A stretch of DNA of 64,000 bases from the NCBI GenBank assembly GCA_014377705.1, contig JACMPC010000057.1:1-64000 (forward strand). Direction: 5' to 3'. Of this stretch, positions 3,069 through 24,611 are shown in pieces. The notes under the pieces are model-generated. The model was not told the origin of the DNA. It saw only the letters and a list, made by a program, of their open reading frames with translations, and did no database searches. The translations under genes were made by a program, and so were the position numbers. Position 1 is the stretch's first letter; every line of letters starts with the position of its first letter. Source of the stretch: Dermatophilaceae bacterium. GTDB taxonomy: Bacteria > Actinomycetota > Actinomycetes > Actinomycetales > Dermatophilaceae.

Positions 3069-3719
3069 ATGGACGCGATCACCCAGAACCTCGACCTGTT
3101 CTGGAACGGGTTCCTGCGCTCACTCACTATCTGTCTGTGGGGTGGGGTCGGCTCGCTGGTCCTCGGGACGTTCATCGCCACGTGTCGCGTCGCCCCCGTC
3201 GCGCCGCTGCGAACCTTCGGCACGGCTTGGGTCACCGTCATCCGCAACTGCCCCCTGTCGGTGCTGCTGTTCATGTTCGCCTTCGGCCTGCCCGAGATCG
3301 GCATCAACGCCGAGTACTACTACTTCGGGCTCGCGGCCCTGATCATCTACACCTCTGCCTTCGTCTGTGAGGGCCTGCGTGCAGGCATCAACTCCGTCTC
3401 GGCCGGGCAGGCCGAGGCGGCCCGGGCGATCGGGCTGACCTTCACCCAGACGCTGACCCAGATCGTGCTGCCCCAGGCCTTCCGGACCTCCATCCCCCCG
3501 GTCGGCAGCGTGATCATCGCGATGTTCAAGAACTCCGCGGTGGTCGGCGCCTTCGGGGTGGGGCTCGACCTCTACAGCGTCGGTGAGTCGCTCACCAGCG
3601 CCCAGGGTTTTGCGGCACTGCCAGTGCTGACCGGTGTCGCCATCGGCTATCTGATGATCACCCTGCCCGCCGGCGTGGGCCTGGGCGTACTCGAACGAAA
3701 GGTGGCGATCGCACGATGA
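3069..3719 (+). CDS. gluC: amino acid ABC transporter permease
   Basis: Polar amino acid permease motif EAARAIGLTFTQTLTQIVLPQAFR. Confidence 0.88.
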   Translation: MDAITQNLDLFWNGFLRSLTICLWGGVGSLVLGTFIATCRVAPVAPLRTFGTAWVTVIRNCPLSVLLFMFAFGLPEIGINAEYYYFGLAALIIYTSAFVCEGLRAGINSVSAGQAEAARAIGLTFTQTLTQIVLPQAFRTSIPPVGSVIIAMFKNSAVVGAFGVGLDLYSVGESLTSAQGFAALPVLTGVAIGYLMITLPAGVGLGVLERKVAIAR

Positions 3720-4597
3720 GCACCCCCAGCGTCCTGTATGACGCACCCGGCCCCCGCGCCCGGCGCCGGGCCGCGGTCGGCGGCGCCTTCGCCAGCGTCG
3801 TGGGCCTGATCCTGACGGGCCTGGTCATCAAGCGCCTGGCCGACGCGGGCCAGTTCTCCGGCGACCTGTGGGGCCCGATCGTGAACCCCTCCAACGAGGA
3901 CTTCCCGGCCGTCTGGAACCTGCTCGCCAAGGGTGTCCAGGCGACCCTGACTGCGGCGGCACTGTCCATCACCTTCTCCCTGATCATCGGCGGAGTGGTC
4001 GGCGTGGCCAGGATGATGCTCGGCCGCAGGGCACGGATGCCGGTCGTCGCCCTGATCGAGCTGCTGCGCGGACTCCCGGTGGTGATCACGATCTACTTCG
4101 CCAGCCGGGTCCTGCCAGAGCTCGGCGTCGACCTGAGCGGGCTACCGGGTGAAGCCGGGCTATGGTTCCTGGTCATCGGTCTGACGGCCTACAACTGCGT
4201 CATCATTGCCGAGATCATCAGGGCCGGCGTTGCCTCGCTTCCGGGCGGCCAGCGAGAGGCCGCACTGGCAGTCGGGCTGACTCCCGGGGCGGCAATGCGA
4301 CTGGTGCTTCTCCCCCAGGCCGTCCGGGTCATGCTGCCGGCCCTGATCAGCCAGCTCGTGGTGATCCTGAAGGACACCTCACTAGCCGCGGTGCTGGCCC
4401 TGTACACCGAGCTTCTGCGACAAGGGAACCTGATCGCGCTCAACCTGCACAACCCGATCCAGATACTCTCCGTGGTCGCGGCCATCTTCATCCTGATCAA
4501 CTACAGCCTCAGCAGGCTGGCCACCTGGGTCGACCAGAGGTCCATCCGCACGACCCGGCCCAGGCGCGTGGAGCCGGCCCCGGCTAACGTCAGCTGA
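3716..4597 (+). CDS. gluD: amino acid ABC transporter permease
   Basis: EAALAVGLTPGAAMRLVLLPQAVRVMLPAL; 4-bp ATGA overlap with preceding permease. Confidence 0.88.
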   Translation: MSTPSVLYDAPGPRARRRAAVGGAFASVVGLILTGLVIKRLADAGQFSGDLWGPIVNPSNEDFPAVWNLLAKGVQATLTAAALSITFSLIIGGVVGVARMMLGRRARMPVVALIELLRGLPVVITIYFASRVLPELGVDLSGLPGEAGLWFLVIGLTAYNCVIIAEIIRAGVASLPGGQREAALAVGLTPGAAMRLVLLPQAVRVMLPALISQLVVILKDTSLAAVLALYTELLRQGNLIALNLHNPIQILSVVAAIFILINYSLSRLATWVDQRSIRTTRPRRVEPAPANVS

Positions 4598-4600
4598 CCT

Positions 4601-4682
4601 CGCTCACCGCGACGGGGGTGAGCGGACGCAACGAACGCACAAAAACAACGAAGTTCCTACCTGGCGAGAGGTAGGACCTTCG
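4601..4682 (+). terminator. double hairpin terminator after gluABCD
   Basis: CGCTCACC/GGTGAGCG (4601-4624), then CGAAGTTCCTACCT/AGGTAGGACCTTCG (4649-4682, one mismatch). Confidence 0.7.
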
Positions 4683-4811
4683 ATGCCCCCTCATTCTACC
4701 CGCAATTCCACAGTCGGATGACAGGGTGGCCGGGTCACCCGCGGCGAGGTGTGCAGCCACCGCGCCCTGGCGCGACGAGCGACCCTTTCAGCGGGCGGCA
4801 CGTCATACAAC

Positions 4812-4902
4812 GGTCAGCGATCTTGGTCAGCGATCTTGGTCAGCGATCTTGGTCATCGATCTTGGTCATCGATCTTGGTCATCGATCTCTGTCATCGATC
4901 TC
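4812..4902. repeat. 13-bp tandem repeat, 7 copies (GGTCAGCGATCTT / GGTCATCGATCTT)
   Basis: Direct reading; first 3 copies have CAG, next have CAT; last two diverge at the end. Confidence 0.95.
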
Positions 4903-4970
4903 GCCGGCGACACCACCGGTGAACGGGTCACGTCCTCAACATTCGCCGAAGAGCTCGGGAGGTCCCCGAG

Positions 4971-6224
4971 TCAGGCCAGGCCCAGTTCCTTCGCCTCTTC
5001 CCAGAGCTCGGTGCGCACGCTGGGATGAGCGGCATACTCGATCAGGTGATGGGCCTGCGTCTTCTCGTCATAGCCCAGCAGACGGGCCACGCCCTGCTCG
5101 GTCACGATCGCGGTCTGCTGGAATGAGGTCACCGGCTCGTCGAGCAGCGGGACGACCGCGGAGCAGTCCGCCTTCGGGTGCCAGCTGCGCAGGGCGATGA
5201 ACGCCTGGCCGCCGGGAGCGTGCATGGCACCGACGATGAAGTCTGTCTGCCCGCCATACCCTGAGTAGATCCTGGCGTTGATCCGTGAGGCGTTGGCCTG
5301 CCCGAAAAGATCGACCTCCAGCGCGGCGTTCACGCTTGTCATCTGCCGGTTGGCGGCGATCAGCGCCGGGCTGTTCGTCTTCTCCGTGCGCAGGAACTGG
5401 AGGCTGGTGTTGTGGTCCACCCAGTCGTACAGCCGGCGCGAACCGAAGCAGAAGGACGCGGTCAGGATGTGCTCCTCGTCAAGCGCATGGGCGTCGTGCA
5501 GGTCCAGGATCCCGTCGGAGAACATCTCGCTCCAGACCCGCAGGCCCTTGCGGGAGGCCAGCGCCCGCAGGGTGGAGTCAGGCACCGCGCCGATGCCCAT
5601 CTGAAGAGTCGCACCGTCATCGATCATGGCGGCAAGTCGATCCGCAATGACAAGGCTGGCGTCGTCCGGTCGGGCGTTGTGGGTGTCATCGAGCTCGAAG
5701 TCGATCTCGACAGCAAGGTCGACCGCGTCGGTCGAGATCTGCGAGTCGCCGTAGGTGTACGGCATCCGAGAGTTGATCACCGCGATCACCAGACCACCGC
5801 GGGCGCGGCAGGCCTCGACGGCCGCCGGAAGCAGGTTCACCTCGATCCCCATGCTGAGCACGCCGTCCTCCGGCGGGGCGCAGTGAAGCACCACGACATC
5901 CGGAGGCAGGGTCCGCCCGAAGAGGACCGGCACCATGGACAGCCGGCTGGGGACATAGGTCAGCGCCGGGTGATGACGCATGCCGGAACCCACGAAGCTG
6001 GTCTCGGCAATCACCCCGGCGCGCACCGGAATGCCAACCGGGGAGTTGAGCTGGAAGAGGCGATACCGCTCGATGGAGCGGTCAATGGCCTCTAGAGCCA
6101 GCCATGGCGTCGTTCCGTTGCCGCCCATCACCACTCGGGGGACGCCCTTGATGGCGCCCAGATGGGTTTGGAGCTCTTCGAGAGTAATCGTCTGCACGGC
6201 CCTATTGTGCCCGATGGCCGTCAC
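4971..6224 (-). CDS. acetyl-CoA hydrolase/4-hydroxybutyrate CoA-transferase family protein
   Basis: GMGGNGTT-like N-term, MGIGAVPDS, YSGYGGQTDF, VVTEQGVARLLG-type C-terminal motifs. Confidence 0.85.
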   Translation of the reverse strand: MTAIGHNRAVQTITLEELQTHLGAIKGVPRVVMGGNGTTPWLALEAIDRSIERYRLFQLNSPVGIPVRAGVIAETSFVGSGMRHHPALTYVPSRLSMVPVLFGRTLPPDVVVLHCAPPEDGVLSMGIEVNLLPAAVEACRARGGLVIAVINSRMPYTYGDSQISTDAVDLAVEIDFELDDTHNARPDDASLVIADRLAAMIDDGATLQMGIGAVPDSTLRALASRKGLRVWSEMFSDGILDLHDAHALDEEHILTASFCFGSRRLYDWVDHNTSLQFLRTEKTNSPALIAANRQMTSVNAALEVDLFGQANASRINARIYSGYGGQTDFIVGAMHAPGGQAFIALRSWHPKADCSAVVPLLDEPVTSFQQTAIVTEQGVARLLGYDEKTQAHHLIEYAAHPSVRTELWEEAKELGLA

Positions 6225-6245
6225 GACCCTTGACCGGCCAGCCTC

Positions 6246-6947
6246 CTAGTCCTGAGGTCGATGCCCCGGCTGACTCTGATGGGTCTGATGGGTCTGATGG
6301 GTCTGATGGGTCTGATGGGTCTGATGAGTTACCGCGAAGACGGCGGCCTGGGTGCGCCGCTCCATGCCCAGCTTGCCCAGCACGGCCGTGATGTAGTTCT
6401 TGACCGTCTTCTCGGCCAGGGACATGACCTCGCCGATCTGGCGGTTGGTGAGGCCCTCCGCCACGTGATCGAGGATTCGACGCTCCTGCGGAGACAACAG
6501 CCGCAGTCTCGGGTCCGCCCCCGCGTTGCTGGTCCACCCGCGGCGGATCCGGTCAACCGTCTCGGGATCGATCAGCATCTCCCCCGCCGCCGCCTTGCGA
6601 ATCGCCTCTATGAGCCCGTTCCCCTTGATGTCTTTCAGGAGGTAGCCCGCAGCCCCGGCCAGCACCGCCGTCGCGAGTGCCTGCTCATCGTCGAAGGAGG
6701 TCAGGATCAGCCCGGCGATCTCCGGGTCCACGGAGCGAACCTCCCGGCAGACGTCGATGCCCGAGCCGTCCGGCAGCCTGGCGTCGAAGATCGCCACGTT
6801 CGGACGCAGGGCGGGGATCCGGCGGCTGGCCTCGACCGCGGAGCCGGACTCTCCGACCACCTCGAAGTCGTCGACGGTCTCGAGGAGCTCGCGCAGCCCG
6901 CGTCGGACGATCTCGTGATCATCGAGCAGAAAAATACGGATCGTCAT
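6246..6947 (-). CDS. devR: LuxR/NarL-family response regulator (DevR/DosR-like) with (HQT)n C-terminal tail
   Basis: MTIRIFLLDDHEIVRRGLRELLE receiver; HTH LSPQERRILDHVAEGLTNRQIGEVMSLAEKTVKNYITAVLGKLGMERRTQAAVFA; adjacent DevS-like kinase. Confidence 0.8.
   Translation of the reverse strand: MTIRIFLLDDHEIVRRGLRELLETVDDFEVVGESGSAVEASRRIPALRPNVAIFDARLPDGSGIDVCREVRSVDPEIAGLILTSFDDEQALATAVLAGAAGYLLKDIKGNGLIEAIRKAAAGEMLIDPETVDRIRRGWTSNAGADPRLRLLSPQERRILDHVAEGLTNRQIGEVMSLAEKTVKNYITAVLGKLGMERRTQAAVFAVTHQTHQTHQTHQTHQTHQSQPGHRPQD
6275..6325. repeat. 9-bp tandem repeat GGGTCTGAT, 5 perfect copies plus partial, inside response regulator 3' end
   Basis: Direct reading; codes HQT repeats on the minus strand. 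Confidence 0.95.
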
Positions 6948-7157
6948 CTGGTCGCCTTCCCATGCCGGATGACACCATCATGAGCCATCGAGACCCCATC
7001 CAAACACGGTCCGCGACGGATCCACCCGCTCGCGTGCCGTCAGCCAAGCCGTCGTCCTCGCCGCCCGGGCAGGACCTGAACGAGGCAGAGGGTTGGGTGA
7101 CCCGCAGGTCACCGCTGTCGGCAGGCGGTTGCCGAAAGTGGTCCCAGCCGGACGCGG

Positions 7158-7757
7158 TCAGCCTTGAGGTGCCTTCGAGTCCACGTGTCGGACGCCCTTG
7201 ACGGACTGCGCGATCGAGATGGCGGCTCCCCGCTCACGTTCCGAGGCATTGCCCGTGACCGTCGCCATCCCGTCGGCGACCTCAACGTGCCAGGCGCCCA
7301 GGCCGGTCTCGGCAAAGGTCAGGGATATCTCGGCGGCAATCTCCTCGTCGGTGCGGGACATCGCCCGGATCACGTCGCTGCGACTGACGACTCCCAGGAG
7401 CTGCTCCCCCCGAACCACTGGCACGCTCTTCCAGTGGGTGCTGGCAAACGTGCGAGCCAGCTCGGCCACGTCGGTGTCCTCGCGCACCGTGTGCGGGTGA
7501 GGCGTCATCACCTGGCCCACGGTCACGAGCTTTGACTGGGTAGCCTGCCGGGAAGGGCGCGCGTGCGCCCTGGGGTCCGGCTCCAGATCCGTCCTGAGCA
7601 GATCAGCCTCGCTGATGATGCCCACCACGCGTCCGCCACCGTCGACGACCGGCAGGCCGGTCACCTTTGAGCGCGCCATCAGGTTCAGCGCATCCTCCAG
7701 CAACGCGCCCTCGAGCACGCTGTATGCCGGACTGGTCATGATCTCGCGGACAAGCAT
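7158..7757 (-). CDS. CBS-domain pair with C-terminal BON domain protein
   Basis: MLVREIMTSPAYSVLEGALLEDALNLMARSKVTGLPVVDGGGRVVGIISEADLL ... VKGVRHVDS; start chosen at 7757 rather than 7874. Confidence 0.8.
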   Translation of the reverse strand: MLVREIMTSPAYSVLEGALLEDALNLMARSKVTGLPVVDGGGRVVGIISEADLLRTDLEPDPRAHARPSRQATQSKLVTVGQVMTPHPHTVREDTDVAELARTFASTHWKSVPVVRGEQLLGVVSRSDVIRAMSRTDEEIAAEISLTFAETGLGAWHVEVADGMATVTGNASERERGAAISIAQSVKGVRHVDSKAPQG

Positions 7758-7870
7758 GTCGGCAACCCCTCTGAACGCAGCACACGGAAACACCAGCATG
7801 CCCTGCCCTGCTTCGTCCTGCCCGCTCAGCCCGAATGAGAGAGGAACAGTGACCAACCTCTCATGCACGA

Positions 7871-10137
<2,267 letters not shown>

Positions 10138-10647: not shown

Positions 10648-12351
10648 ATGGCGTCGTTGGAGCTGGCAGCAGGCAGCCTGCGGGTGACCTACCCGGACAA
10701 CTACAGGGTGGGGCCACAGCGGCGCGCGCCGGGCGGCCGGGCAGCTGGCCCGTCGGCCTGGGCCGGGTCCGTCGGACCCACCAATGAGGTATCCGCGGTC
10801 CTGCTCGAGGCGTTCGCGGCCCAGGGCATGGATGTGGTTGAACCCTTCGAGCTCGAGCCCGCCACCCCCCATGCCCCGACCGGGCAGCGGGGGCAGTCGG
10901 AGTTGGGTGGGCGCCAGCCGAACCGTGCCGGGAAGGTACGGGTCTCGATGGACCTGCCGCAGGGCAGGGACGCCGTCATCCTGCTCGAACAGGACGGGCT
11001 CTTCTCGTGGCAGCTGCCCACTGGTCACGACACTGGTCACGACACTGGTCACGACGACACTGGTCACGAAGACACGGCGACGGCCCGTTTCGAGATCGAC
11101 GTGCGACCCGCCATGCCGGCCCGGCCGAGCGCACGGACCCGCCCTGCCCTCGGGCCTTTCGGCGACGTGGTCGTCGGCCGGCTGAAGGCGTATGTGCTGA
11201 CCTTCTCCTCCCGTTTCGTTCCCGGCGCGATCATGGCCTTTCTGGAACGGGACACCCGCCCATGCCTGGTCCTGATGACGAGCCCGGACCTGAGGAGCTG
11301 GGCGCACGCCGACACCCTGAGCCAGGTGAACCTGCCGGTCGGCCGGCCTGCCAGGATCCTGCTCTTCATCCACGGGACCTTCCAGACCACCGTCGGCAGC
11401 TACGGCGTGCTCACCTCGACAGCGCCGGGGCGGAAGATGCTGAAGGCCGCCGCCGACTCGTACGACGCGGTCATCGGCTTCGACCACAAGACCCTGAGCA
11501 GGGACCCGCTGGAAAACGCGATCGACCTGCAGTCCCGGCTGGACGCCCGGCACCTGGACCTCCCCCCGACGATCGACATCGTCTCGTACAGCCGCGGCGG
11601 TCTCGTAGCCCGCAGCCTGGCCGAGTACGTCCTGCCGTCATCGACCTGGCATGCGGGCATCGGCAAGATCGTCTTCGTCGGCGCGACGAACGCGGGGACC
11701 CAGCTGGCTGAACCGGAGAACTGGAGGACCCTGGTCGACCTCTACACCAACCTAGCGGCGGGTACGGCGCGGTCCATCGGGTTCGCCACCGGGTCAGCCC
11801 CGGCGGCCGAGATCGTGGGGGGCCTCGTCCGCGGGATCGGCGCGTTCGTGAGGTACCTGGTGTCGGCCGCCACCGTCACGGAGATGAGGATCCCTGGTCT
11901 GGCGGCGATGGAGCCCGGCGGCCCGTTCATCACCGCCATCAACGCAACCCAGCCGGGCCAGCCCGCACCCGGCACACCCTGGTACGTCGTCTCCTCGGAC
12001 TTCGAGCCGGCCTTGTTCGATGACCGGCATGAGCCGCCCGAGCTGCCACGGGAGCTGGTGGCCAGGCTGGCCGACGGCCTGGTGGACACGCTGATGGGCA
12101 CCAGGAACGACCTGGTCGTCGACACCGCGTCGATGTCGTCGGTGGACCTGCCGTCCGGGGGCGGGTTCATCAAGGACTCACTGGCCTTCGGTACGAACGG
12201 CACCGTCTATCACCTCAACTACTTCATCCAGCCGCAGGTCTGTCGTGCGCTGGTCGACTGGCTCAAGATCCGTGAGACCGCAGCTCCATCCATGAGACCG
12301 CATCAGCATGCCAGGGCAAGACCCGCGAGAGACCAACGAGAAGGAAGCTGA
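10648..12351 (+). CDS. large alpha/beta-hydrolase (lipase/PGAP1-like, DUF7379-type) with ~230-aa N-terminal extension
   Basis: LLFIHGTFQTTVGSYG oxyanion region; IVSYSRGGLVARSLAEY nucleophile elbow GxSxG-like (SYSRGG); start ATG 10648 chosen over 10249. Confidence 0.7.
   Translation: MASLELAAGSLRVTYPDNYRVGPQRRAPGGRAAGPSAWAGSVGPTNEVSAVLLEAFAAQGMDVVEPFELEPATPHAPTGQRGQSELGGRQPNRAGKVRVSMDLPQGRDAVILLEQDGLFSWQLPTGHDTGHDTGHDDTGHEDTATARFEIDVRPAMPARPSARTRPALGPFGDVVVGRLKAYVLTFSSRFVPGAIMAFLERDTRPCLVLMTSPDLRSWAHADTLSQVNLPVGRPARILLFIHGTFQTTVGSYGVLTSTAPGRKMLKAAADSYDAVIGFDHKTLSRDPLENAIDLQSRLDARHLDLPPTIDIVSYSRGGLVARSLAEYVLPSSTWHAGIGKIVFVGATNAGTQLAEPENWRTLVDLYTNLAAGTARSIGFATGSAPAAEIVGGLVRGIGAFVRYLVSAATVTEMRIPGLAAMEPGGPFITAINATQPGQPAPGTPWYVVSSDFEPALFDDRHEPPELPRELVARLADGLVDTLMGTRNDLVVDTASMSSVDLPSGGGFIKDSLAFGTNGTVYHLNYFIQPQVCRALVDWLKIRETAAPSMRPHQHARARPARDQREGS
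11020..11070. repeat. 12-bp tandem repeat ACTGGTCACGAC x4 (one 3-bp insertion), encodes TGHD repeats
   Basis: Direct reading; protein ...LPTGHDTGHDTGHDDTGHEDTA. Confidence 0.95.
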
Positions 12352-12352
12352 C

Positions 12353-13375
12353 ATGACCGCCGCGCCCAAGATGTGCTTCGACCGAATTCTCCCGCGGGAC
12401 ATGATGCGCCCGCGCCTGACGACGACGGCCCCGAACGGTCAGACGCGTGCGATATCGCCGCGCGGCAAGACCTGGCTCAGCGGCTCGACCCTGCGGGTAC
12501 GCTTCCTGGGTGGATCGGCCGCCGAGCGGGCCACCGCCCGCGAGCAGGCTCTCTGGTGGGGGGAGTTTGCGAACCTCATCTTCGACTTCGGCAGCGCGCC
12601 GGACGCCGAGATCAGGATCTCGTTCGACCCCGACGACGGCGCCTGGTCGTACATCGGCACGGACTCGCGGCAGATCCCGAACAACGAGGCGACGATGAAC
12701 CTCGGGTTCCTGGACGGCGGCACCGCGGCGCACGAGTTCGGACATGCGGTCGGCCTGGCCCACGAGCACTCCAGCCCCGCCGGCGGCATCGAATGGAACG
12801 AGTCCGTGGTGCTGGCAGCACTTGCCGGGGCGCCCAACTTCTGGGACGAGGCGACCACCCGGCACAACGTGTTCTTCAAGTACTCGGTCGACCAGATCAA
12901 CGGCACCGCCTTCGACCCTGACTCGATCATGCTCTACGCGTTCCCCGCGTCCTGGACCAAGAACGGGGTGGCCACCCACGCCAACGACATCCTGTCCGCG
13001 CTCGACAAGGAGTTCATCGCCGGCTCCAAGATGTACCCCAAGTCGGGCCCCGGGCCGGGCGCGGCCACCCAGCTCACCGTCGGCGCCGACCGGCTGAAGG
13101 CCGATATCGGCACGTCCGGCGAGGAGGACATCTTCCGGTTCACCGCCGCCCATGACGGCGTCTACCAGATCGACACCGGCGGCAAGACGGACGTCTACAT
13201 GAAGCTGTTCGGGCCGAACAGCACGACCGCGCTGATCGACGAGGACGACGACAGCGGGTACGGCCTGAACCCCCGGATCTCGGCCCAGCTGCTGGCCGGT
13301 GACTACTTCGTGCAGATCCGGCACTACGACCGCTCCAGCACCGGCACCTACACGATCGGGGTCAAGAAACGCTGA
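12353..13375 (+). CDS. matrixin-like zinc metalloprotease with C-terminal pre-peptidase (PPC-type) domain
   Basis: Zinc site HEFGHAVGLAHEH (HExxHxxGxxH); C-term DIFRFTAAHDGVYQIDTGGKTDVYMKLFG...YFVQIRHYDRSSTGTYTIGV. Confidence 0.85.
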   Translation: MTAAPKMCFDRILPRDMMRPRLTTTAPNGQTRAISPRGKTWLSGSTLRVRFLGGSAAERATAREQALWWGEFANLIFDFGSAPDAEIRISFDPDDGAWSYIGTDSRQIPNNEATMNLGFLDGGTAAHEFGHAVGLAHEHSSPAGGIEWNESVVLAALAGAPNFWDEATTRHNVFFKYSVDQINGTAFDPDSIMLYAFPASWTKNGVATHANDILSALDKEFIAGSKMYPKSGPGPGAATQLTVGADRLKADIGTSGEEDIFRFTAAHDGVYQIDTGGKTDVYMKLFGPNSTTALIDEDDDSGYGLNPRISAQLLAGDYFVQIRHYDRSSTGTYTIGVKKR

Positions 13376-13404
13376 CCCTGGACAGCTGCCCATTCAGGGC
13401 TGCG

Positions 13405-13435
13405 CGGGCAGGGTCGCCTGGAGCGATCCTGCCCG
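13405..13435. terminator. hairpin between convergent metalloprotease and S41 genes
   Basis: CGGGCAGGGTCGC-CTGGA-GCGATCCTGCCCG, 13-bp stem with one G.U. Confidence 0.65.
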
Positions 13436-13440
13436 ACCGG

Positions 13441-13480
13441 GGCGGGTTGCGGAGGCCCTTGGCGGGTTGTCCAGGCCCTT
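13441..13480. repeat. 20-bp direct repeat x2 (GGCGGGTTGCGGAGGCCCTT / GGCGGGTTGTCCAGGCCCTT)
   Basis: Direct reading, 17/20 identical. Confidence 0.85.
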
Positions 13481-15240
13481 CAGGACGTGTCGTGCAGGGT
13501 CTGGGCGCAGAAGTTGTAGAGGTCCTTGTTCCCCTCTAGCAGGTCCCGCCGGGTCGGCGCGTAGGGGATGCCGCGGATCCCCAGATCCTCGATCGGTATT
13601 CCGTCCGAGACGCCGGACCGGATCGCCCTGCGGATCGCCATGGTGAACTGCACACCGCCGGGCAAGGGGTCGAACGCGTATGGCGTGCTAGCCAGGGCGT
13701 CATTGAGCTGCAGGTCGCCCCAGACGTTCGCGCCGCCGGCCCCGGTCGCCTCGCCGATCGAGATCAGCGGACCGATGTCGTGGTCGGCCCATCCCGCGGC
13801 GAACAGGTCGCCCGAGGAGTACGTGTTCGGGTCGACCACGAGAGCCGCTGTGCCCGGATAGGTCCGGCCGATGTCCCGGCACCAGCTCGGGTCGGTCAGG
13901 GCGACGGGCTTGGAGTACACCTCGCCGGTCGAGACCGCATCGGTCAGGCTGTTGAGCCAGTCATCCAGCTCGAGGTGGTTGAACTCGCTCTCGGCCATCG
14001 CCCGGGTGACCGGCGTGGCGAGCAGCGAGAAGCGGGTCGGCTGAATCTCCCTGTCAGTGAACAGCTGTAGCAACCTCTCGGCCGCCCAGATCAGCCCGCC
14101 CGGGTTGCCCCGCAGATCGACGATGAGCCTGTCCTGGGGGAGAAGTTTCAGGAGCCGGTCCACCTCGGTGACGAAGGCCTCGTGGTCGTGCACGTCGAAG
14201 CTCCAGACCCGCAGGTAGCCGACCTCGGCGCGCCTGGCCCGCAACCCTTCGTGGAACGTCGCAGACACCCTGCGCGCAGACAGGACCTCGAGGAAGGACG
14301 TCTCGAGATCCTGGCCGATCGCCACTGCCGCGGGCTTGCCCGTCGCGGTGTCTCGCGCGCTGCCTCGCACCCCGTTGCCCGGCGACGACCTGCCGTGCAC
14401 CACCTTGGCTCGTGATGACCTGCCTGTTGACGTCTTGAGCCGGTTGGCGTCCCAGGTCTCCGGTGCGAACATCAGCGTCCTGGCCTTGCGGACCGACTCG
14501 GCCGAAGGATTCCAGGCGGCGCGCAGCGCACTCTGCGGGTTCTTGCCCAGCCTGGCCGCCGTGATGTCGACCACCCGCCAGGGCATGGTCACCTCGCGCA
14601 GCGAACGGCCCACCCTGAACCCGATGGTGACCTTGAGCTCATCCGGGGGCGGCCCGTAGTCCAGCGAGCGGAACGTCAGCGTCTCCAACGCCCGGGCGCG
14701 TCGGGCGTCGCGACGTCCTCCCGTCTCCTGGAAGGCGTACACGTCCACGGCCCGTGCCATCGGGACGTAGTTCCACGAGACCAGCTCCACCCCCTGCGCG
14801 AACCCCAGCTTCTTCATCGCGGGGGTGTTCGCCGTCCCGGCGAGCTTGGAGACGATGAACCTCGGCGCGTCCTGCGGCCCGTAGGACTCCACCAGGAAGG
14901 GCAGCAGCGCGACCTTGCCGCGCAGGCCGGACGGTCCGACATACCGCGTGTGCGCGTCCCGCAGGCCGGTGATGATCCCGGTGACCGCGAGGTGGAACTC
15001 TCCGTCGGTCATCTCGACGCACCGCTGACGCAGCAGGCGCAGGGCCTGCACCGGATCCGCCGCGTATCCCGCGCGTTTCTGGGGCAGGTGGCAGTACACG
15101 CCCTCGATCAGCGGAACCAGCGTGTCGACCACCCGGAGCCGGTCCTGCGGACCAAGCTCAGGCGTCAGGCCCTCACCCTTCAGCGCCTCACTCAGCCGAA
15201 CGCCCTTCTGGGCGATCGCTGACTCTCGACTCTGCGCCAT
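13480..15240 (-). CDS. S41-family (C-terminal processing/tricorn-like) peptidase
   Basis: DRLIVDLRGNPGGLIWAAERLLQLF and TAALVVDPNTYSSGDLFAAGWADHDIGPLISIGEATGAGG; start at 15240 with GGAGAG SD. Confidence 0.78.
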   Translation of the reverse strand: MAQSRESAIAQKGVRLSEALKGEGLTPELGPQDRLRVVDTLVPLIEGVYCHLPQKRAGYAADPVQALRLLRQRCVEMTDGEFHLAVTGIITGLRDAHTRYVGPSGLRGKVALLPFLVESYGPQDAPRFIVSKLAGTANTPAMKKLGFAQGVELVSWNYVPMARAVDVYAFQETGGRRDARRARALETLTFRSLDYGPPPDELKVTIGFRVGRSLREVTMPWRVVDITAARLGKNPQSALRAAWNPSAESVRKARTLMFAPETWDANRLKTSTGRSSRAKVVHGRSSPGNGVRGSARDTATGKPAAVAIGQDLETSFLEVLSARRVSATFHEGLRARRAEVGYLRVWSFDVHDHEAFVTEVDRLLKLLPQDRLIVDLRGNPGGLIWAAERLLQLFTDREIQPTRFSLLATPVTRAMAESEFNHLELDDWLNSLTDAVSTGEVYSKPVALTDPSWCRDIGRTYPGTAALVVDPNTYSSGDLFAAGWADHDIGPLISIGEATGAGGANVWGDLQLNDALASTPYAFDPLPGGVQFTMAIRRAIRSGVSDGIPIEDLGIRGIPYAPTRRDLLEGNKDLYNFCAQTLHDTS

Positions 15241-15250
15241 GACTTCTCTC

Positions 15251-16864
15251 CTACCGGTAGAACCGGGCCAGGTCGTCCAGGACGCCACCGTGGTAGCCCC
15301 TGCCGACGATCGAGTCGAGGAACTCGCCGTCATGGCTGAGCCCGGCCAGCGCGGGCACTGTGATCTCGTCGAGGTTCTTGGGTAGACCACCCAACGGCGT
15401 CAGGCCGGTCGGCATGTCCAGCGCCAGCCGCAGCGGCGGCTGGGGGACGGGCCGGCCGCCGTTGCGCGACCGGGCCAGGTACACCGATGCCATCGCCGCC
15501 TCCTGCCTCGTGCGCCCCTTCTCGATCTCGCGCATGGGGTGCCCCCGGACCACCTCCATCCGGGCGACCACGTCGTCCCACTCCCATGTGGCGCCGGGGT
15601 CGTCAGGCCGGGTCAGCACCATTGCCCGGGCCTCGCCGTCGACTGAGAGCGAGGTGGTGGCGGTCCCGTTCCTGCCTGCCCTGGCCATCAGCGCCGGCTT
15701 CCCGTACTGCGCCCGCCCGCCGATCACCACGAGCTCCACATCTCGCTCGCGGGCACTCAGCAGGGCCCGGAACGGGTCAACCCGCGGGCCGGCCCGGATG
15801 ACGAGCAGGTCACCCACCGCGCCCGGCTGGAGCCGGCCGACCTGGCGCTTCCAGGGGCGGGCGAGCACGTCCCCGGGGTTCGTGGTCACCATCCGCACGA
15901 GGTCGCTGTCGGACAGGCCCCACTGGTTCTCGTCGGAGACCAGGCGCGCCACCTTCAGCTCACCCAGCACGCTGCGAGTCCCGGAGGGACCCCAGTCTGA
16001 TCCGAGGCAGACCGTCTGTCCTGCCTCCATCGCCGCGGGCACGTTCGTCGTGGAGCTGTATAGCCACAGGTTCGAGAACGGCGACCACACGACGGCGCCA
16101 TGCCTGCGCCAGCCGGCGAAGTCCTTCGGGTCGATCGCGTTGCAGTGCACCGCGATGAAACGTTCCTGAAGACAGTCGGCCTTCTTGGCGTCATGGAACT
16201 CCTGCGCCACGACGGTGCCGACCTGTCCCTCCGAGCAGTGGTAGATGAACGCGCTGCCCTGCCGCATCCGGGCCGCCTTCTTCAGCAGACCCTCCGGGTT
16301 CAGCGTGAGGGTCGAGGCCTGGATGAGGTTGGTGTCGTGGGTGCCCCAGGTCTCGTCCTCCGCGTTCCGCACGACCCACCCGTCGCGTGGCCGGTTCTTC
16401 GGCGGTGAGCCCTGGATCGTGGTGGTGCCACCGACGATCGCCCGCGTCTCGGCATACGCCAGAAGCTCCTGCGGAGACGCCGTGATGAACGCGTATGCCG
16501 GCCACGTCACGCTGGCTGCGTAGGACTGGGCACCCGGCCAGGAGTTGTGGTGCAGGAACGGCTTGGCTTTGTCGCGGGTCTCCTCCGTCCACAGCGGCAA
16601 CGTGTTGTAGGCCAGATGGTTGTGCAGGTCGATCAGCCCCGGGAACACCAGCGAGCTCCCGACGTCGACCACCGGGGCCTTCTCGAAACCGGGCGGTGCC
16701 GCGGCATGGCCATGAGTGCCATGAGTGCCATGAGTGCCATGAGTGATGGCTGTGACCATCCCGTCGTCGCCGAGCCAGACCGTGCCGGCGAACGCGTCAA
16801 GCTCACCCTTGCTGACTTCACGGTCCGCCGAAAGCGGGACGATCCGGCCTCGAACAGCGAACAT
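15251..16864 (-). CDS. amidohydrolase family protein (imidazolonepropionase-like fold)
   Basis: VVDVGSSLVFPGLIDLHNHLAYN metal-binding HxH; CLGSDWGPSGTRSVLGELK; C-terminal LQPGAVGDLLVI. Confidence 0.82.
   Translation of the reverse strand: MFAVRGRIVPLSADREVSKGELDAFAGTVWLGDDGMVTAITHGTHGTHGTHGHAAAPPGFEKAPVVDVGSSLVFPGLIDLHNHLAYNTLPLWTEETRDKAKPFLHHNSWPGAQSYAASVTWPAYAFITASPQELLAYAETRAIVGGTTTIQGSPPKNRPRDGWVVRNAEDETWGTHDTNLIQASTLTLNPEGLLKKAARMRQGSAFIYHCSEGQVGTVVAQEFHDAKKADCLQERFIAVHCNAIDPKDFAGWRRHGAVVWSPFSNLWLYSSTTNVPAAMEAGQTVCLGSDWGPSGTRSVLGELKVARLVSDENQWGLSDSDLVRMVTTNPGDVLARPWKRQVGRLQPGAVGDLLVIRAGPRVDPFRALLSARERDVELVVIGGRAQYGKPALMARAGRNGTATTSLSVDGEARAMVLTRPDDPGATWEWDDVVARMEVVRGHPMREIEKGRTRQEAAMASVYLARSRNGGRPVPQPPLRLALDMPTGLTPLGGLPKNLDEITVPALAGLSHDGEFLDSIVGRGYHGGVLDDLARFYR
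16711..16746. repeat. 9-bp tandem repeat CATGAGTGC x4 in amidohydrolase 5' region (encodes THG repeats)
   Basis: Direct reading; protein ...ITHGTHGTHGTHGHAA. Confidence 0.95.
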
Positions 16865-17209: not shown

Positions 17210-18730
17210 ATCCACGCAGATCTTTATGTCAATGGTCAATGGCTCGACGCCATCGCCGGCGGCCGGCGAGAGATCCGGTGCCCCGCCGACAGAACACTGG
17301 TGGCAACGGTATCCGAGGGGACGCGTGCGGACTCCGTCACAGCGATCCGCGCCGCCCGCGCAGCCTTCGACCAGGGTGACTGGCCGCGAACCCCCGAGCG
17401 CGAGAGGGGGGCGCTGCTCCTTCGAGCGGCAGACCTGATGGTGCGCGACAAGGCAGCCTTCGCCCGGGCCGAGGCCCTGGACACCGGCAAGCGCCTGCTC
17501 GAGGCCGAGTACGACATCGATGAGGTCGTCAGTTGCTTCCGCTACTACGGCGGCGTCGCCGGCACGGATGCCGGCCGGGTGATCGACACCGGACGCCACG
17601 ACGCGATCAGCCGGGTGGTCCACGAGCCGGTCGGGGTCTGCGCCCTCATCACGCCGTGGAACTACCCGCTGATGCAGACCTCCTGGAAGGTCGCGCCGGC
17701 GTTGCTGGCCGGCAACACCTTTGTCCTGAAACCCAGCGAGCTGACGCCGTCCACCGCCATCCTCCTGATGCGTGTGCTGGAGGAGGCGGGACTGCCCGCA
17801 GGCGTCGCTAACCTCGTCCTGGGCGCCGGCGCCGAGGTCGGCGCAGTGCTGGCCCAGGACCCGGACGTCGACCTGGTGTCGTTCACCGGCGGCCTGGCGA
17901 CCGGCCGCACGGTGATGGCCGCGGCCGCGCAGAGCGTCAAGCGGGTCGCCCTGGAGCTGGGCGGCAAGAACCCCAACATCGTCTTTGCCGACGCGGACTT
18001 CGAGACGGCTGTCGACCTCGCTCTCACCGCGGTTTTCCTGCACTCCGGGCAGGTGTGCTCGGCCGGCGCGCGACTCATCGTCCAGGACGAGCTGCACGAC
18101 CGGTTCGTCGACGAGGTCGTCCGCCGGGCCAACCTCATCCGCCTCGGCGGGCCCTTCGACGAGCTCACCGAGACCGGCACACTCATCTCGGCAGCGCACC
18201 TGGCCAAGGTCACCAGCTATGTCGAGGGCGGTCTGGCCGAGGGCGCGGTGCTGCGCTGTGGTGGCAACCAGGCCCGGGAGGGAGCGCTGGCCAATGGCTT
18301 CTTCTTCCAGCCCACCGTGCTCGACGACTGTCACACCGGGATGCGGGTCGTCCAGGAGGAGTCGTTCGGCCCGGTCATGACGGTTGAGCGCTTCACCGAC
18401 GAGGATGACGCGGTGCGCATCGCCAACGACACAAAATACGGTCTGGCGGGCGCGGTCTGGACCAGCGACGCCGGCAAGGCGCAACGGGTAGCCGGGCGAC
18501 TGCGGCACGGCACGATCTGGATCAACGACTACCACCCCTACGTGCCACAGGCCGAGTGGGGCGGCTTCAAGCAGTCCGGTGTCGGCCGCGAGCTCGGCCA
18601 GGCCGGGCTCGCCGAGTACCGCGAGACCAAGCACATCTGGCAGAACACCCGCCCCGAGCCGCAGCACTGGTTCGGCGAGTCACTTTCTCGCCAGAGCCCG
18701 CTGCCGACAACCGAGGAGAGCTCACGATGA
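17210..18730 (+). CDS. betB: betaine-aldehyde dehydrogenase; homology extends upstream of any ATG/GTG/TTG
   Basis: [33 protein letters not shown] (upstream in frame), [39 protein letters not shown]; in-frame stop TAG at 17198; canonical start only at GTG 17300. Confidence 0.8.
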
Positions 18731-19854
18731 CCACGATGACCAGGCAGACCCAGCAAGAGTCCACCGCCACAGAATCACTGACAGGGACGCTGAAAGACAG
18801 CCAAGACAACCAAGACAGCCAGGGCAGCCAGGGTGCCGTGCAGCCGGCGATCTCGGTGCGCAACCTGTGGAAGGTCTTCGGACCCAACGCCGAGAACGTG
18901 CCGGGCACCCCTGAGCTCGCAGCCCTTTCGCCGCGCGAGCTGATGGACCAGGAGTCGTGCGTGGCCGCGGTGCGAGACCTGAGCTTCGACGTCGCACCCG
19001 GCGAGGTTTTTGTCATCATGGGCCTGTCGGGCTCCGGCAAGTCGACCCTGGTGCGCTGCCTGACCCGCCTGATCGAGCCGACCAACGGCGAGATCTTCCT
19101 GCAGGGCGAGGACGTGCTCGCAGCCAACGAGAAGGCGCTGCGCGACCTGCGTCGGCGCAAGATCTCGATGGTGTTCCAACACTTCGGCCTGCTACCGCAC
19201 CGACAGGTCATTGACAACGTCGCCTACGGCCTGGAGATTCGCGGTGACAGCAAGGCCGAACGGACCAGGCGGGCCCGCGAGGTCATCGACCTGGTCGGGC
19301 TCTCCGGCAACGAGCACTCCTATCCCGATCAGCTCTCCGGCGGCATGCAACAACGGGTCGGCCTGGCCCGGGCGCTGGCCGGCAAGCCCGAGGTCCTGCT
19401 CTTCGACGAGCCGTTCTCTGCCCTCGACCCGCTGATCCGCCTCGACATGCAGAACGAGATCATCCGGCTGCACAAGGAGCTCGGCAAGACGATGGTCTTC
19501 ATCACCCACGACCTGTCCGAGGCGCTCAAGCTCGGCGACCGGATCCTCATCATGCGCGACGGGGAGATGGTCCAGATCGGCACCGGACCCGAGCTCATCG
19601 GGGCTCCCGCCGACAACTATGTGCGCGACTTCGTCAAGGAGATCCCGTTCTCGGGTGTGCTGACCCTCCGCTGGATCATGCGCCCGGCCAAGCCCGGTGA
19701 GCTCCTGGACGGCCCCGAGCTCGGCCCGGACGTGGTGGTGCACGAAGCCGTAAGGCTGGTGCTCGAGTCCGACCACTCCGTCAAGATCGTCGAGAACGGC
19801 GTCCTGCTCGGTGTCGTGGGCAACCATGAGATCCTGCGCGTGGTCGCCGGCTGA
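18727..19854 (+). CDS. proV: glycine betaine/proline ABC transporter ATP-binding protein
   Basis: [45 protein letters not shown]; ATPase start at 18727. Confidence 0.88.
18796..18831. repeat. 9-bp degenerate tandem repeat x4 (GACAGCCAA), encodes [12 protein letters not shown]
   Basis: Direct reading. Confidence 0.85.
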
Positions 19855-21854
19855 TGTCCTCGACTGATCGCACGCTTGACACTGAACACACTGTGAACCG
19901 AGCTCGTATCCTGCGCTGGGGCTCCGCCGTCCTGGTGCTGCTCGTCTGGATGGTTGGCTTCGTGACCCTTCGGGGCCGCGACACGATGGCCCTGGCCCAG
20001 GCTGACCTGACCCCGCTGCATGAGCGGCTCAACGGCCTGAACGACGCGGTGAGCGCCGGGCGCAGCACCAACCCGCTGTTCATCTACTTCTTCGACGTGA
20101 TCCGCGCCGTCATCGACGCGATGGCGACCGCCGTCCAGGCATTCATCGCCCAGCCCGCGTTCGGGCGCCCGGTCCCCCTGATCGGGTGGCTCGGTGTGGT
20201 TGCCGTGGCGACGTTCCTGGCCTGGGCCTTCGGCAACGTCAAGGTGGCCTTGCTGACCGCCGCCGGACTGGCCGTGCTCGGCATGCAGGGGCTCTGGATA
20301 GAGAGCATGGACACCCTCGCGCTAACCGCGACGGCCGTGATGCTGTCGCTGCTGGTCGGGATCCCGCTGGGCATCTGGGCCGGGCTATCGGACCGGGTCA
20401 ACGCCGCCATGACCCCCTTCCTGGACTTCATGCAGACGATGCCCACGTTCGTCTACCTGGCGCCGCTGACCCTGGTCTTCCTGATCGGCCCAGCCTCCGC
20501 GGCGATCGCCACCCTGATCTATGCGGCCCCGCCGGTCATCAGGATCACCGCCCACGGGATCCGCGGCGTGCCGCAGGAGACGCTCAAAGCGGCCCAGTCG
20601 ATGGGCTCCACGCGGTTCCAGCTGCTGACCAAGGTCATGCTCCCGATGACCAAGCGCACCATCGTCATCGGGATCAACCAGACCATCATGGCCGCGCTGT
20701 CGATGGTGACCATCGCGGCCCTGATCGACGCGCCGGGCCTGGGACAGGTCGTCCTGAAGGCGCTTCAGTCCCTCGACGTCGGCACGGCCTTCAACGCCGG
20801 GCTCTCCATCGTCATCCTGGCGATCGTGCTCGACCGGGTGACCACCGCGGCCAGCGTCCGCAGCGAGCTGGCCCGGCGCAACCCGACGGGCCGCTCGAAG
20901 CGGCTTCGCCGCCCTGCCCTCGCGATCGGCGCCCTGCTGTCCGTGTTCGGCGTCTACATGTCGTACACCTACGTGTGGGCGGCGCAGTTCCCGGCCGACC
21001 CCGATCTCGGCGGCCCGATCAGACGGACCGCCGACACGACCTCGAAATGGGCTCAGCTGCACTTCAGCGGCGCCACGAACTCCGTCAAGGACACGCTGAC
21101 CGACAAGGCGCTCAACCCGTTCCAGATGCTGCTGACCGACTCCCCCTGGTGGCTGGTCTGCGCCGTCATCATTGCGCTGGCGCTGATCATCGGCAGCCGC
21201 CGGGCGGCGATCGGCGCGGCCATATGTCTCGCCGTGATCGTCGGCACCGGCATGTGGGCCGACACCATGACCACCCTGGCGGCAACCCTGGTGGCCACCG
21301 TCGCGGTGATGGTGCTCGGGCTGGTCCTCGGAGTCTGGATGGGTCGCAGCCCCCGCGCCGACCGCCTGATCAGGCCAACTCTGGACGCGGCTCAGACCAT
21401 GCCGGCCTTCGTCTATCTGGTGCCGTTCGTCGCGTTGTTCGCGGCCAGCAGGTTCACCGCGATCGTGGCAGCCGTGGTCTTCGCCGCCCCCATCACGATC
21501 AAGATCATCGCCGACGGGATAGCCGGTGTGCCCGGGGAGACGATCGAGGCAGCCACCGCCGCGGGCTCGAGCCGGTGGCAGATCATCAGCAAGGTCCAGC
21601 TCCCCATGTCCATGCGCACGATCGCCCTGGCTACCAACCAGGGGTTGATCTACGTGCTCTCTATGGTCGTGGTCGGCGGGCTGGTGGGGGCCGGCGCACT
21701 GGGCTACGACGTCGTGGGCGGCTTTCGGCAGAACAGCCTCTTCGGTAAGGGCCTGGCCGCGGGGCTGGCGATCGTGATGCTCGGCATCATGCTCGACCGG
21801 GTGACCCAGGCGGCCTCGCGCAAGGTCGACGTCACCAGCGCCGGACACCACTGA
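19854..21854 (+). CDS. proW: glycine betaine ABC transporter permease, two fused permease domains
   Basis: Two copies of PFLDFMQTMPTFVYLAPL... / PTLDAAQTMPAFVYLVPF... and GVPQETLKAAQSMGSTRFQ / GVPGETIEAATAAGSSRWQ. Confidence 0.88.
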   Translation: MSSTDRTLDTEHTVNRARILRWGSAVLVLLVWMVGFVTLRGRDTMALAQADLTPLHERLNGLNDAVSAGRSTNPLFIYFFDVIRAVIDAMATAVQAFIAQPAFGRPVPLIGWLGVVAVATFLAWAFGNVKVALLTAAGLAVLGMQGLWIESMDTLALTATAVMLSLLVGIPLGIWAGLSDRVNAAMTPFLDFMQTMPTFVYLAPLTLVFLIGPASAAIATLIYAAPPVIRITAHGIRGVPQETLKAAQSMGSTRFQLLTKVMLPMTKRTIVIGINQTIMAALSMVTIAALIDAPGLGQVVLKALQSLDVGTAFNAGLSIVILAIVLDRVTTAASVRSELARRNPTGRSKRLRRPALAIGALLSVFGVYMSYTYVWAAQFPADPDLGGPIRRTADTTSKWAQLHFSGATNSVKDTLTDKALNPFQMLLTDSPWWLVCAVIIALALIIGSRRAAIGAAICLAVIVGTGMWADTMTTLAATLVATVAVMVLGLVLGVWMGRSPRADRLIRPTLDAAQTMPAFVYLVPFVALFAASRFTAIVAAVVFAAPITIKIIADGIAGVPGETIEAATAAGSSRWQIISKVQLPMSMRTIALATNQGLIYVLSMVVVGGLVGAGALGYDVVGGFRQNSLFGKGLAAGLAIVMLGIMLDRVTQAASRKVDVTSAGHH

Positions 21855-21886
21855 TGAATGAGAAGCCAGCCACACGAACGACCGCA

Positions 21887-21916
21887 AACACCGACGACAG
21901 CAACACCGACGACAGT
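21887..21916. repeat. 15-bp direct repeat x2 (AACACCGACGACAGC)
   Basis: Direct reading, 14/15 identical. Confidence 0.85.
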
Positions 21917-21943
21917 GCATCAAAGGAAAGAGGGCGGCACGCC

Positions 21944-22948
21944 ATGACCAGATCGCTTGCCAGCAGATCCAGGCCGACCCGGGCCGTGGCGGGTCTGGCC
22001 ATCGCTGCAACCGCCCTCTCACTAGCCTCCTGTGGCGCCACCAAGGTCTCGGACATCTCCGCCGGCGGCGCCAAGGGCTCCAGCGCGAAGTGTGGCCAGT
22101 TCAACCTCGCTGTCAACGCCTGGGTGGGCTACGAGGCCAACGCCGCGGTGATCGCCTATGTGGCGGAGAAGAAGCTCGGCTGCACGGTGAAGCTGAAGAA
22201 CCTCGACGAACAGGTCTCGTGGCAGGGCTTCTCCACCGGTGAGGTCGATGCCGTGGTGGAGAACTGGGGTCACCCCGACTTGGTCAAGAAGTACATCACC
22301 GAGCAGAATGTCGCCCGGGACGCGGGGCTGACCGGCAACATCGGCAAGATCGGCTGGTACGTGCCGCCCTTCATGGTCAAGGCGCACCCGGACATCCTGG
22401 ACGGCAAGAAGCTCAACAAGTACGCCTCGCTGTTCAAGACCAGCGAGTCCGGCAGCAAGGGACAGATCCTCGACGGAGACCCGGGATTCGTCACCAACGA
22501 CGCCGCCCTGGTCAAGAACCTGAAGCTCGACTACAAGGTGGTCTTCTCCGGGTCCGAGGCGGCCCTGATCCAGAGCTTCCGGCAGGCTGAGGCGACCAAG
22601 AAGCCCATGATCGGGTACTTCTACGAGCCGCAGTGGTTCACCACGGAAGTGCCGGTCAAGAAGATCAGCCTCCCGGCATACAAGCCCGGCTGCGACGTCG
22701 ACCCCGCCAAGGTGGCCTGCGACTACCCGCTGTACAAGCTCAACAAGGTGGTCAGCAACACGTTCGCCACCTCGCACAGCCCTGCCTTCTCGCTGGTCAA
22801 GAACTTCAGCTGGACCAACGCCGACCAGAACGTCGTCGCCAAGTCCATCGCGGTGGACAAGATGCCCGCAGACAAGGCCGCCAAGAAGTGGGTCGACGCC
22901 AACCCGGACAAGGTCAAGGCCTGGCTTGTCGGAACAGGAGTGAGCTGA
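21944..22948 (+). CDS. proX: glycine betaine-binding lipoprotein (OpuAC family)
   Basis: Lipobox [32 protein letters not shown]; start at 21944 or 21854. Confidence 0.82.
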
Positions 22949-22949
22949 G

Positions 22950-24611
22950 ATGAGCACTACGTCATACGACTTCGTCATTGTCGGCGGTGGCTCGGCCGGC
23001 TGCGCGCTGGCCAACCGGCTGTCCGCCGATCCGTCCAACAGCGTCCTGGTCCTGGAGGCAGGCCGCAAGGACTCGCTCTGGGACGTCCTCATCCACATGC
23101 CGGCCGCCCTGCCCTTCCCGATCGGCAGCCGCTTCTACGACTGGAAGTACGAGTCCGAGGCCGAGCCGCAGATGAACGGCCGTAAGGTCGTCCACGCGCG
23201 CGGCAAGATCCTGGGCGGCTCGAGCAGCATCAACGGGATGATCTTCCAGAGGGGCAACCCGCTGGACTTCGAACGCTGGGGCGCCGACAAGGGGATGGAG
23301 TCCTGGGACTACGCCCACTGCCTGCCCTACTTCAACCGGATGGAGACCTGCGTCGCGGCGAACCCCGACGACCAGCGCCGGGGTCACCACGGCCCGCTCG
23401 TGCTGGAACGCGGACCGGCGACCAACCCGCTTTTCGACGCCTTCTTCAAGGCCACCGAGCAGGCCGGCTACCCGCGCACCGACGATGTGAACGGGTACCG
23501 CCAGGAGGGCTTCGCGCAGTTCGACCGGAACATCAGCAACGGGCGCCGGCTCTCCGCAGCCCGGGCGTACCTGCATCCGGTGATGGACCGTCCCAACCTC
23601 ACCGTGCTCACCCGCGCCATGGTGACCAAGGTGCTCTTTGAGGGCAGGACCGCCGTCGGCGTCGAGTACCACCGCGGCCGGGGCGCGACCCAGACGGTGA
23701 GCGCCGCCACGACCATCCTGTCCGGCGGAGCGATCAACTCCCCGCAGCTGCTTCAGCTCTCAGGGGTGGGCAACGCCGTGGACCTGTCCAGGCTCGGAAT
23801 CGACGTGGTGCATGACCTGCCCGGCGTCGGGGAGAACCTGCAGGACCACCTTGAGGTGTACATCCAGTACGCCTGCAAGCAGAAGGTCACCATGCAGAAG
23901 TACCTCAAGCACCGCTACAAGCCGTGGCTCGGGGCCAACTGGCTGTTCCGGCGCAAGGGCCCGGCCGCGACGAACCACTTCGAGGGCGGCGGCTTCGTCC
24001 GCGGCAACGAGGACGTCGCGTACCCCAACCTGATGTTCCACTTCCTGCCGATCGCCGTCCGGTATGACGGGTCGTCCCCGGACGGTGGCGAGGGCTACCA
24101 GGTGCACGTCGGCCCGATGTACTCCGATGCCCTCGGCTCGGTGAAGATCACCAGCAAGGACCCCAAGGTCTACCCGGCCCTGCGGTTCAACTACCTGTCG
24201 ACCGACCAGGATCGCCGGGAGTGGCTCGAGGCCGTGCGGGTTGCCCGCACCATCCTGACCCAGCAGGCCATGGACGAGTTCAACGACGGCGAGATCTCGC
24301 CCGGCCCGTCGGTGCAGACCGACCAGGAGATCCTCGACTGGGTGGCCAGGGACGCGGAGACCGCGCTGCACCCGTCCTGCTCGCTGAAGATGGGCGTGGA
24401 CGAGATGTCGGTCGTCGACCCGCTGACCATGGGCGTGCACGGTCTCGAAGGGCTCAAGGTGGTGGACGCCTCGGTCATGCCGTACGTGACCAACGGCAAC
24501 ATCTATGCGCCGGTGATGATGCTGGCCGAGAAGGCGGCCGACCTGATCCTGGGCACCACGCCGCTGCCGCCGTCCGACGCGGGCTTCTACCGGCACAAGG
24601 TGGTTGCCTGA
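22950..24611 (+). CDS. betA: choline dehydrogenase (GMC oxidoreductase)
   Basis: [22 protein letters not shown] site; [21 protein letters not shown]-term HPSCSLKMG...[25 protein letters not shown]. Confidence 0.92.

Follow-up and report, generated by a model that had tools for sequence, protein, structure and literature searches.

The NTP-dependent multi-effector conflict systems described by Kaur et al. 2020 (PMC7159879), which also feature EAD coupling, use pairs of a caspase and an alpha/beta hydrolase and, in rare cases, a DNA glycosylase as effectors. Amidohydrolases are not mentioned in the text of that paper, and the term S41 occurs in its citations only. The genes considered here lie in the window, a stretch of 64,000 nucleotides (contig JACMPC010000057.1, positions 1 to 64,000) from a Dermatophilaceae bacterium. 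They encode an alpha/beta hydrolase (A), an astacin/myroilysin-type metallopeptidase (B), a CPAF-like S41 peptidase (C), and a predicted deaminase-type amidohydrolase (D). The original prediction tentatively assigned all four to one conflict-system cluster. The best explanation of the present data, to which we give a probability of about 0.48, is that A-B and D-C form two independent convergent operons encoding hydrolases of the conflict-effector sort, with D-C being part of a module of glycosylase, amidohydrolase, and S41 peptidase.

All four open reading frames are intact and arranged as two convergent pairs of hydrolytic genes, as predicted (Table 1). Their codon-position GC content (GC3 of 0.87-0.94 vs. 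GC2 of 0.50-0.52 across A-D) indicates that they are real genes, and purine-rich Shine-Dalgarno-like stretches are found immediately 5' of B and C. A-B and D-C are each spaced as co-transcribed genes are, making both pairs candidate two-gene operons. A scan of the 104 bp across which B and C converge finds no intrinsic-terminator-like site. All four proteins keep their catalytic residues, which are conserved among homologues, and none begins with the strongly hydrophobic segment expected of a signal peptide, in agreement with the original prediction. Short tandem repeats at window positions 11019-11075 and 16709-16745, with units of 12-15 bp and 9 bp, enlarge loops rich in His, GHDTGHDTGHDDTGHED in A and THGTHGTHGTHG in D, and the aligned homologues are without them. 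The genes flanking A-D encode a histidine kinase, a response regulator, a CBS protein, and glycine-betaine functions. The last of these, at window positions 17300-24611, are ordinary glycine-betaine genes for a betaine-aldehyde dehydrogenase, an OpuA-like ABC transporter, and a GMC oxidoreductase.

Table 1. Positions of the four genes and their principal features in the window.
Feature	Position	Strand	Length	Remark
Gene A	10648-12351	+	567 aa	ORF list
A, DUF7362	10672-11205	+		Pfam
A, DUF7379 alpha/beta hydrolase	11359-11943	+		Pfam
A, S315	11590-11592	+		Candidate catalytic triad
A, D488	12109-12111	+		Candidate catalytic triad
A, H522	12211-12213	+		Candidate catalytic triad
Gene B	12353-13375	+	340 aa	Start 1 nt past end of A
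B, conserved N-terminal Cys8	12374-12376	+		Candidate cysteine switch
B, metzincin motif HEFGHAVGLAHEH	12731-12769	+
B, Met-turn SIMLY	12923-12937	+
B, C-terminal PPC domain	13124-13321	+
B-C gap	13376-13479		104 bp	Between convergent 3' ends
Gene C	13480-15240	-	586 aa	ORF list
C, E551	13588-13590	-		Catalytic residue
C, S475	13816-13818	-		Catalytic residue
C, H97	14950-14952	-		Catalytic residue
Gene D	15251-16864	-	537 aa	Ends 10 nt upstream of C

Protein A matches the Pfam families DUF7379 (2.9e-64) and DUF7362 (2.1e-19), consistent with its earlier description as a lipase-fold protein with an N-terminal region and a DUF7379-like domain. The candidate triad S315-D488-H522 is invariant across five homologues in an alignment. 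The structure model of A is poor (pLDDT 50), and its Foldseek matches to esterases, with marginal E-values, were set aside. DUF7362 is rare, occurring in 2 of 248 genomes sampled from the order and 1 of 397 from the phylum, with the genome under study among the matches in each, so that the sampling of A relatives is shallow. A relative with 63% identity is found in UBA4719 (L004), where it has the same upstream genes as in the window: a CoA-transferase, a response regulator, a CBS protein, and a sensor kinase. This upstream stretch of the window (4971-9619, with a NarL-type regulator and a GAF-HisKA_3 kinase) is syntenic with positions 3064-8109 of L004, and in both places it looks like a two-component stress/dormancy-type cluster adjoining A. 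B, C, and D are absent beside the UBA4719 gene, and a C relative is absent from that whole genome. Other A relatives include a DUF7362-DUF7379-DUF7363-CHAT fusion with a C14 caspase downstream (L006), a gene neighboring EAD8-nSTAND1, EAD8-CHAT, and NACHT genes (L005), and a DUF7379-CHAT fusion adjoining a SIR2-AAA gene (L010). The suggestion that DUF7379-like domains recur beside CHAT or caspase proteins therefore holds for these relatives, but not beside A in the window.

Protein B was originally called matrixin-like. The matrixin model scores under its cut-off, and an astacin/myroilysin-type identity is preferred: Pfam reports Astacin M12A (4e-8) and a PPC domain, and the closest solved structure by sequence in the PDB is myroilysin (3e-42). 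Both the HExxHxxGxxHE motif and the Met-turn of the M12A astacins are present. The N-terminal cysteine, a candidate cysteine switch, is kept in all five relatives compared. An NCBIfam match to 'beta-glucuronidase AbsR1' (141 bits vs. a cut-off of 650) is not accepted as a function, and a literature search for that name found no paper. Relatives of B found by search are mostly isolated astacins without homologues of A, C, or D, and no A-B pair was found outside this window. A relative with 60% identity on a cyanobacterial plasmid of Kovacikia (L008) is split by a frameshift and lies ~1.6 kb from an amidase-caspase protein. At that locus, positions 3357-6341 encode amidase_2 and caspase domains in a single protein.

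Protein C matches Peptidase_S41 in Pfam (9e-15), and alignment, structure model, and Foldseek agree on an S41 fold with a serine, an N-terminal histidine, and a glutamate. H97, S475, and E551 are conserved in an alignment of 12 sequences, although one truncated relative does not extend to the H97 position. The model has a mean pLDDT of 77.5, and its best Foldseek match is mature CPAF (E-value 2.6e-23). The score of C against the NCBIfam CPAF equivalog is 37.8 bits vs. a cut-off of 250, so C is CPAF-like and not a CPAF. A second S41 gene, 36-37% identical, is found on contig C5 of the same genome (L024, 2992-5884), with a single-domain UDG-like gene upstream.

Protein D matches Amidohydro_1 (1.6e-14) and falls in the guanine deaminase/ATZ-TRZ branch of the amidohydrolases, whose HxH, HxxE, H, and D metal/acid set it retains. 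The metal site is complete (H81, H83, H209, E212, H240, and D290) and invariant in 13 homologues. From these motifs, D is predicted to be a deaminase-type enzyme. One relative has a lipoprotein-type N-terminus (L070), so its site of action may differ. On an Azospirillum plasmid, a 938 aa protein (L044, 5690-8506) carries a D-type amidohydrolase in its C-terminal half and no identified family in its N-terminal half, and is followed by two subtilase ORFs.

D and C recur together. They are fused as one ~1190 aa protein in genomes G490 and G648, occur as a fusion broken by one stop in G582, are adjacent genes in G591, and share one operon on a Variovorax plasmid with a P460-like gene between them. 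In phylogenetic trees, the D of the window is sister to that of G591 (support 100/100), and its C groups with those of G591 and Variovorax (100/99), pointing to descent shared with a glycosylase-bearing copy, that of G591. A two-domain gene of the UDG superfamily adjoins D or the D-C fusion in G490, G582, G591, G449, and G648. Overall, a UDG-superfamily gene lies within 5 kb at 6 of the 8 actinobacterial C/D loci sampled, for which the chance expectation, computed from four UDG matches per 3.8 Mb, is ~4e-11, with the loci not fully independent because five are from one class. This count leaves out Variovorax, where the UDG match of the neighboring gene is weak (E-value 0.008, below cut-off). 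In another class, the two-domain UDG is present in 1 of 257 genomes, G789, which is also the sole genome there with a D relative; the two genes are 2.1 kb apart, with a metzincin gene between. The motifs GQEGAQDE and HPG are invariant in this UDG family, which matches the solved Blr0248 (5gn2, 1e-26), which we take to be BdiUng. No two-domain UDG was found on plasmids, and tblastn finds no UDG in the window. In this genome, the UDG within 5 kb is found instead on contig C5, where the UDG-like gene beside the second S41 gene is borderline at the Pfam cut-off. D-C together with the UDG is, with little doubt, a real conserved module. Literature searches on DUF7379, on DUF7362, on UDG with S41 and amidohydrolase, and on S41 and amidohydrolase with antiphage returned no description, and the glycosylase-amidohydrolase-S41 gene set is apparently undescribed.

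The quartet itself does not recur. No second locus with all of A-D was found, and the best C-D relatives have neither A nor B beside them, just as the UBA4719 A is without B-D. The four genes are thus not co-conserved, which refutes the proposed four-gene system and leads us to reject the quartet as one conserved unit. Because relatives of A and of C-D occur in conflict-type contexts, support for the conflict-system reading rises for each pair, with our confidence in it at about one half. The idea of a single cluster gains nothing from them.

One of these contexts is that of G449 (L035), where genes for a subtilase, an alpha/beta hydrolase-like protein, a small protein, a caspase (C14, 7.5e-15), the UDG, and the amidohydrolase follow one another on one strand with short gaps. 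PADLOC gives defence-type matches for the subtilase and the caspase. The alpha/beta hydrolase-like protein is so named for its SHGWNN motif and its 42% identity to a protein at L052, which has weak Pfam alpha/beta-hydrolase matches. The small protein (138 aa, 12658-13074) has a central hydrophobic helix and is encoded directly 5' of the caspase. On Rhizobium and Sinorhizobium plasmids, the neighbors of D relatives include AbiH, RmrA, a helicase, and a match to PD-T7-1; on an R. johnstonii plasmid, a D relative is near IetA and a subtilase; and on a Massilia plasmid, one is near a PDC-S26 candidate. Some plasmid contexts are of a GMC oxidoreductase/ferritin-like type rather than plain defence. 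D itself belongs to no PADLOC system, although Iet, PD-T7-1, AbiH, and RmrA are plasmid neighbors of its relatives. D is not known to be required by any of these four. No PADLOC model of a known or candidate defence family matches A-D, and no PHROG family matches A-D or the UDG. The D-C fusion is also without a match in phages or viral contigs, which leaves no direct phage link, and a phage origin was rejected.

Apart from conflict, C and D, with or without the UDG, could have a physiological role in clearing bases and proteins that are damaged or modified. In that case, the glycosylase would excise deaminated bases, the amidohydrolase would process those, and the peptidase would clear damaged protein. 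By family, the relatives of the UDG are enzymes of DNA repair, and U, Hx, and Xan are possible substrates of BdiUng-like enzymes (PMC8307549). The branch in which D falls includes guanine deaminase, and at L068 and L069 S41 relatives occur singly in housekeeping surroundings. Such a role nevertheless appears unlikely, since a patchy distribution (C relatives in 5 of 397 actinobacterial genomes), plasmid carriage and PADLOC-matching neighbors of D relatives, and a caspase/subtilase operon such as that of G449 would all be unusual for housekeeping repair.

The P460-like gene between the Variovorax C and D, the related gene after the R. johnstonii D, and the GMC and ferritin-like genes that come next at plasmid loci raise another prospect, namely scavenging of peptides, lipids, or heterocycles, or small-molecule synthesis with these oxidoreductase-type plasmid partners. 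The PPC domain of B, typical of secreted proteases, and the lipoprotein-type D relative also fit this picture. We consider it quite improbable, as A-D are without signal peptides, neither pair includes a transporter or pathway enzymes, and DNA glycosylase and caspase partners are a misfit for catabolism. Decay is a further alternative, in which A has long been in place, B and D-C were acquired separately, and the window copy, having lost its partners, is inactive as a unit or a set of chance neighbors. The upstream neighborhood kept by the UBA4719 A where B, C, and D are absent, the lack of any locus with all four genes, and the missing UDG of the window are all compatible with it. Four intact ORFs with complete catalytic sites, a strong GC3 bias, and the operon-like spacing of A-B and D-C speak against it, and we consider it improbable as well.

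Under the preferred reading of two operons of conflict-effector hydrolases, a sensor or upstream protease would be triggered first. The glycosylase would then remove bases from DNA, D may have bases, nucleotides, or a signal derived from them as its substrate, and C may cleave proteins of the cell or of an invader. A would contribute a hydrolase of lipase/esterase type, and B a zinc protease held latent by its N-terminal cysteine. Acting in the cytosol on DNA bases, nucleotides, proteins, and lipids, the combined hydrolases would incapacitate a cell that is infected or damaged. We infer the substrates, latency, trigger, and antiphage function alike. Neither glycosylase, caspase, nor sensor NTPase is found beside the window genes. 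The window copy may therefore be a reduced set, or it may rely on distant partners such as those encoded on contig C5, where an S41 gene and a glycosylase gene lie together.

More tentatively, the glycosylase, deaminase-type amidohydrolase, and CPAF-like S41 peptidase could constitute an undescribed conflict system common to actinobacteria and proteobacteria and partly fused, deploying base removal, deamination, and proteolysis jointly, with subtilase, metzincin, and caspase as exchangeable protease partners. If the module does serve defence or self-destruction, base excision, deamination, and CPAF-type proteolysis would be combined in one gene set, and the list of known effectors would grow by two enzyme families. 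The occurrence of CPAF-type peptidases in bacterial conflict outside Chlamydia would be a further implication, with operons and one-protein fusions offered for testing.

The module UDG differs from the BdiUng-like Blr0248 in being ~600 aa long with two UDG-like halves and is absent from the window, but is its sequence relative across the N-terminal UDG domain. C differs from the Chlamydia S41 peptidase CPAF in sequence (17% identity), gene context, and the absence of a secretion signal, but shares its fold and its Ser/His/Glu catalytic set. B is without the signal peptide of myroilysin, a bacterial astacin with a cysteine switch, and has a C-terminal PPC domain, but resembles it in its catalytic domain, metzincin motif, and conserved N-terminal cysteine. 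Relative to the systems of Kaur et al. 2020, the window genes have no adjacent MoxR-vWA, STAND, or GTPase core, and no caspase or CHAT partner is found beside A. The small protein of L035 is not identified as EACC1, as PF19953 has no match there; it is similar in layout alone to the EACC1-caspase two-gene system from the same work. The likeness to those systems lies in the use of alpha/beta hydrolases and peptidases as effectors, in the A relatives with a CHAT fusion or with EAD8/nSTAND1 neighbors, and in L035, which unites a caspase, an alpha/beta hydrolase, and a glycosylase.
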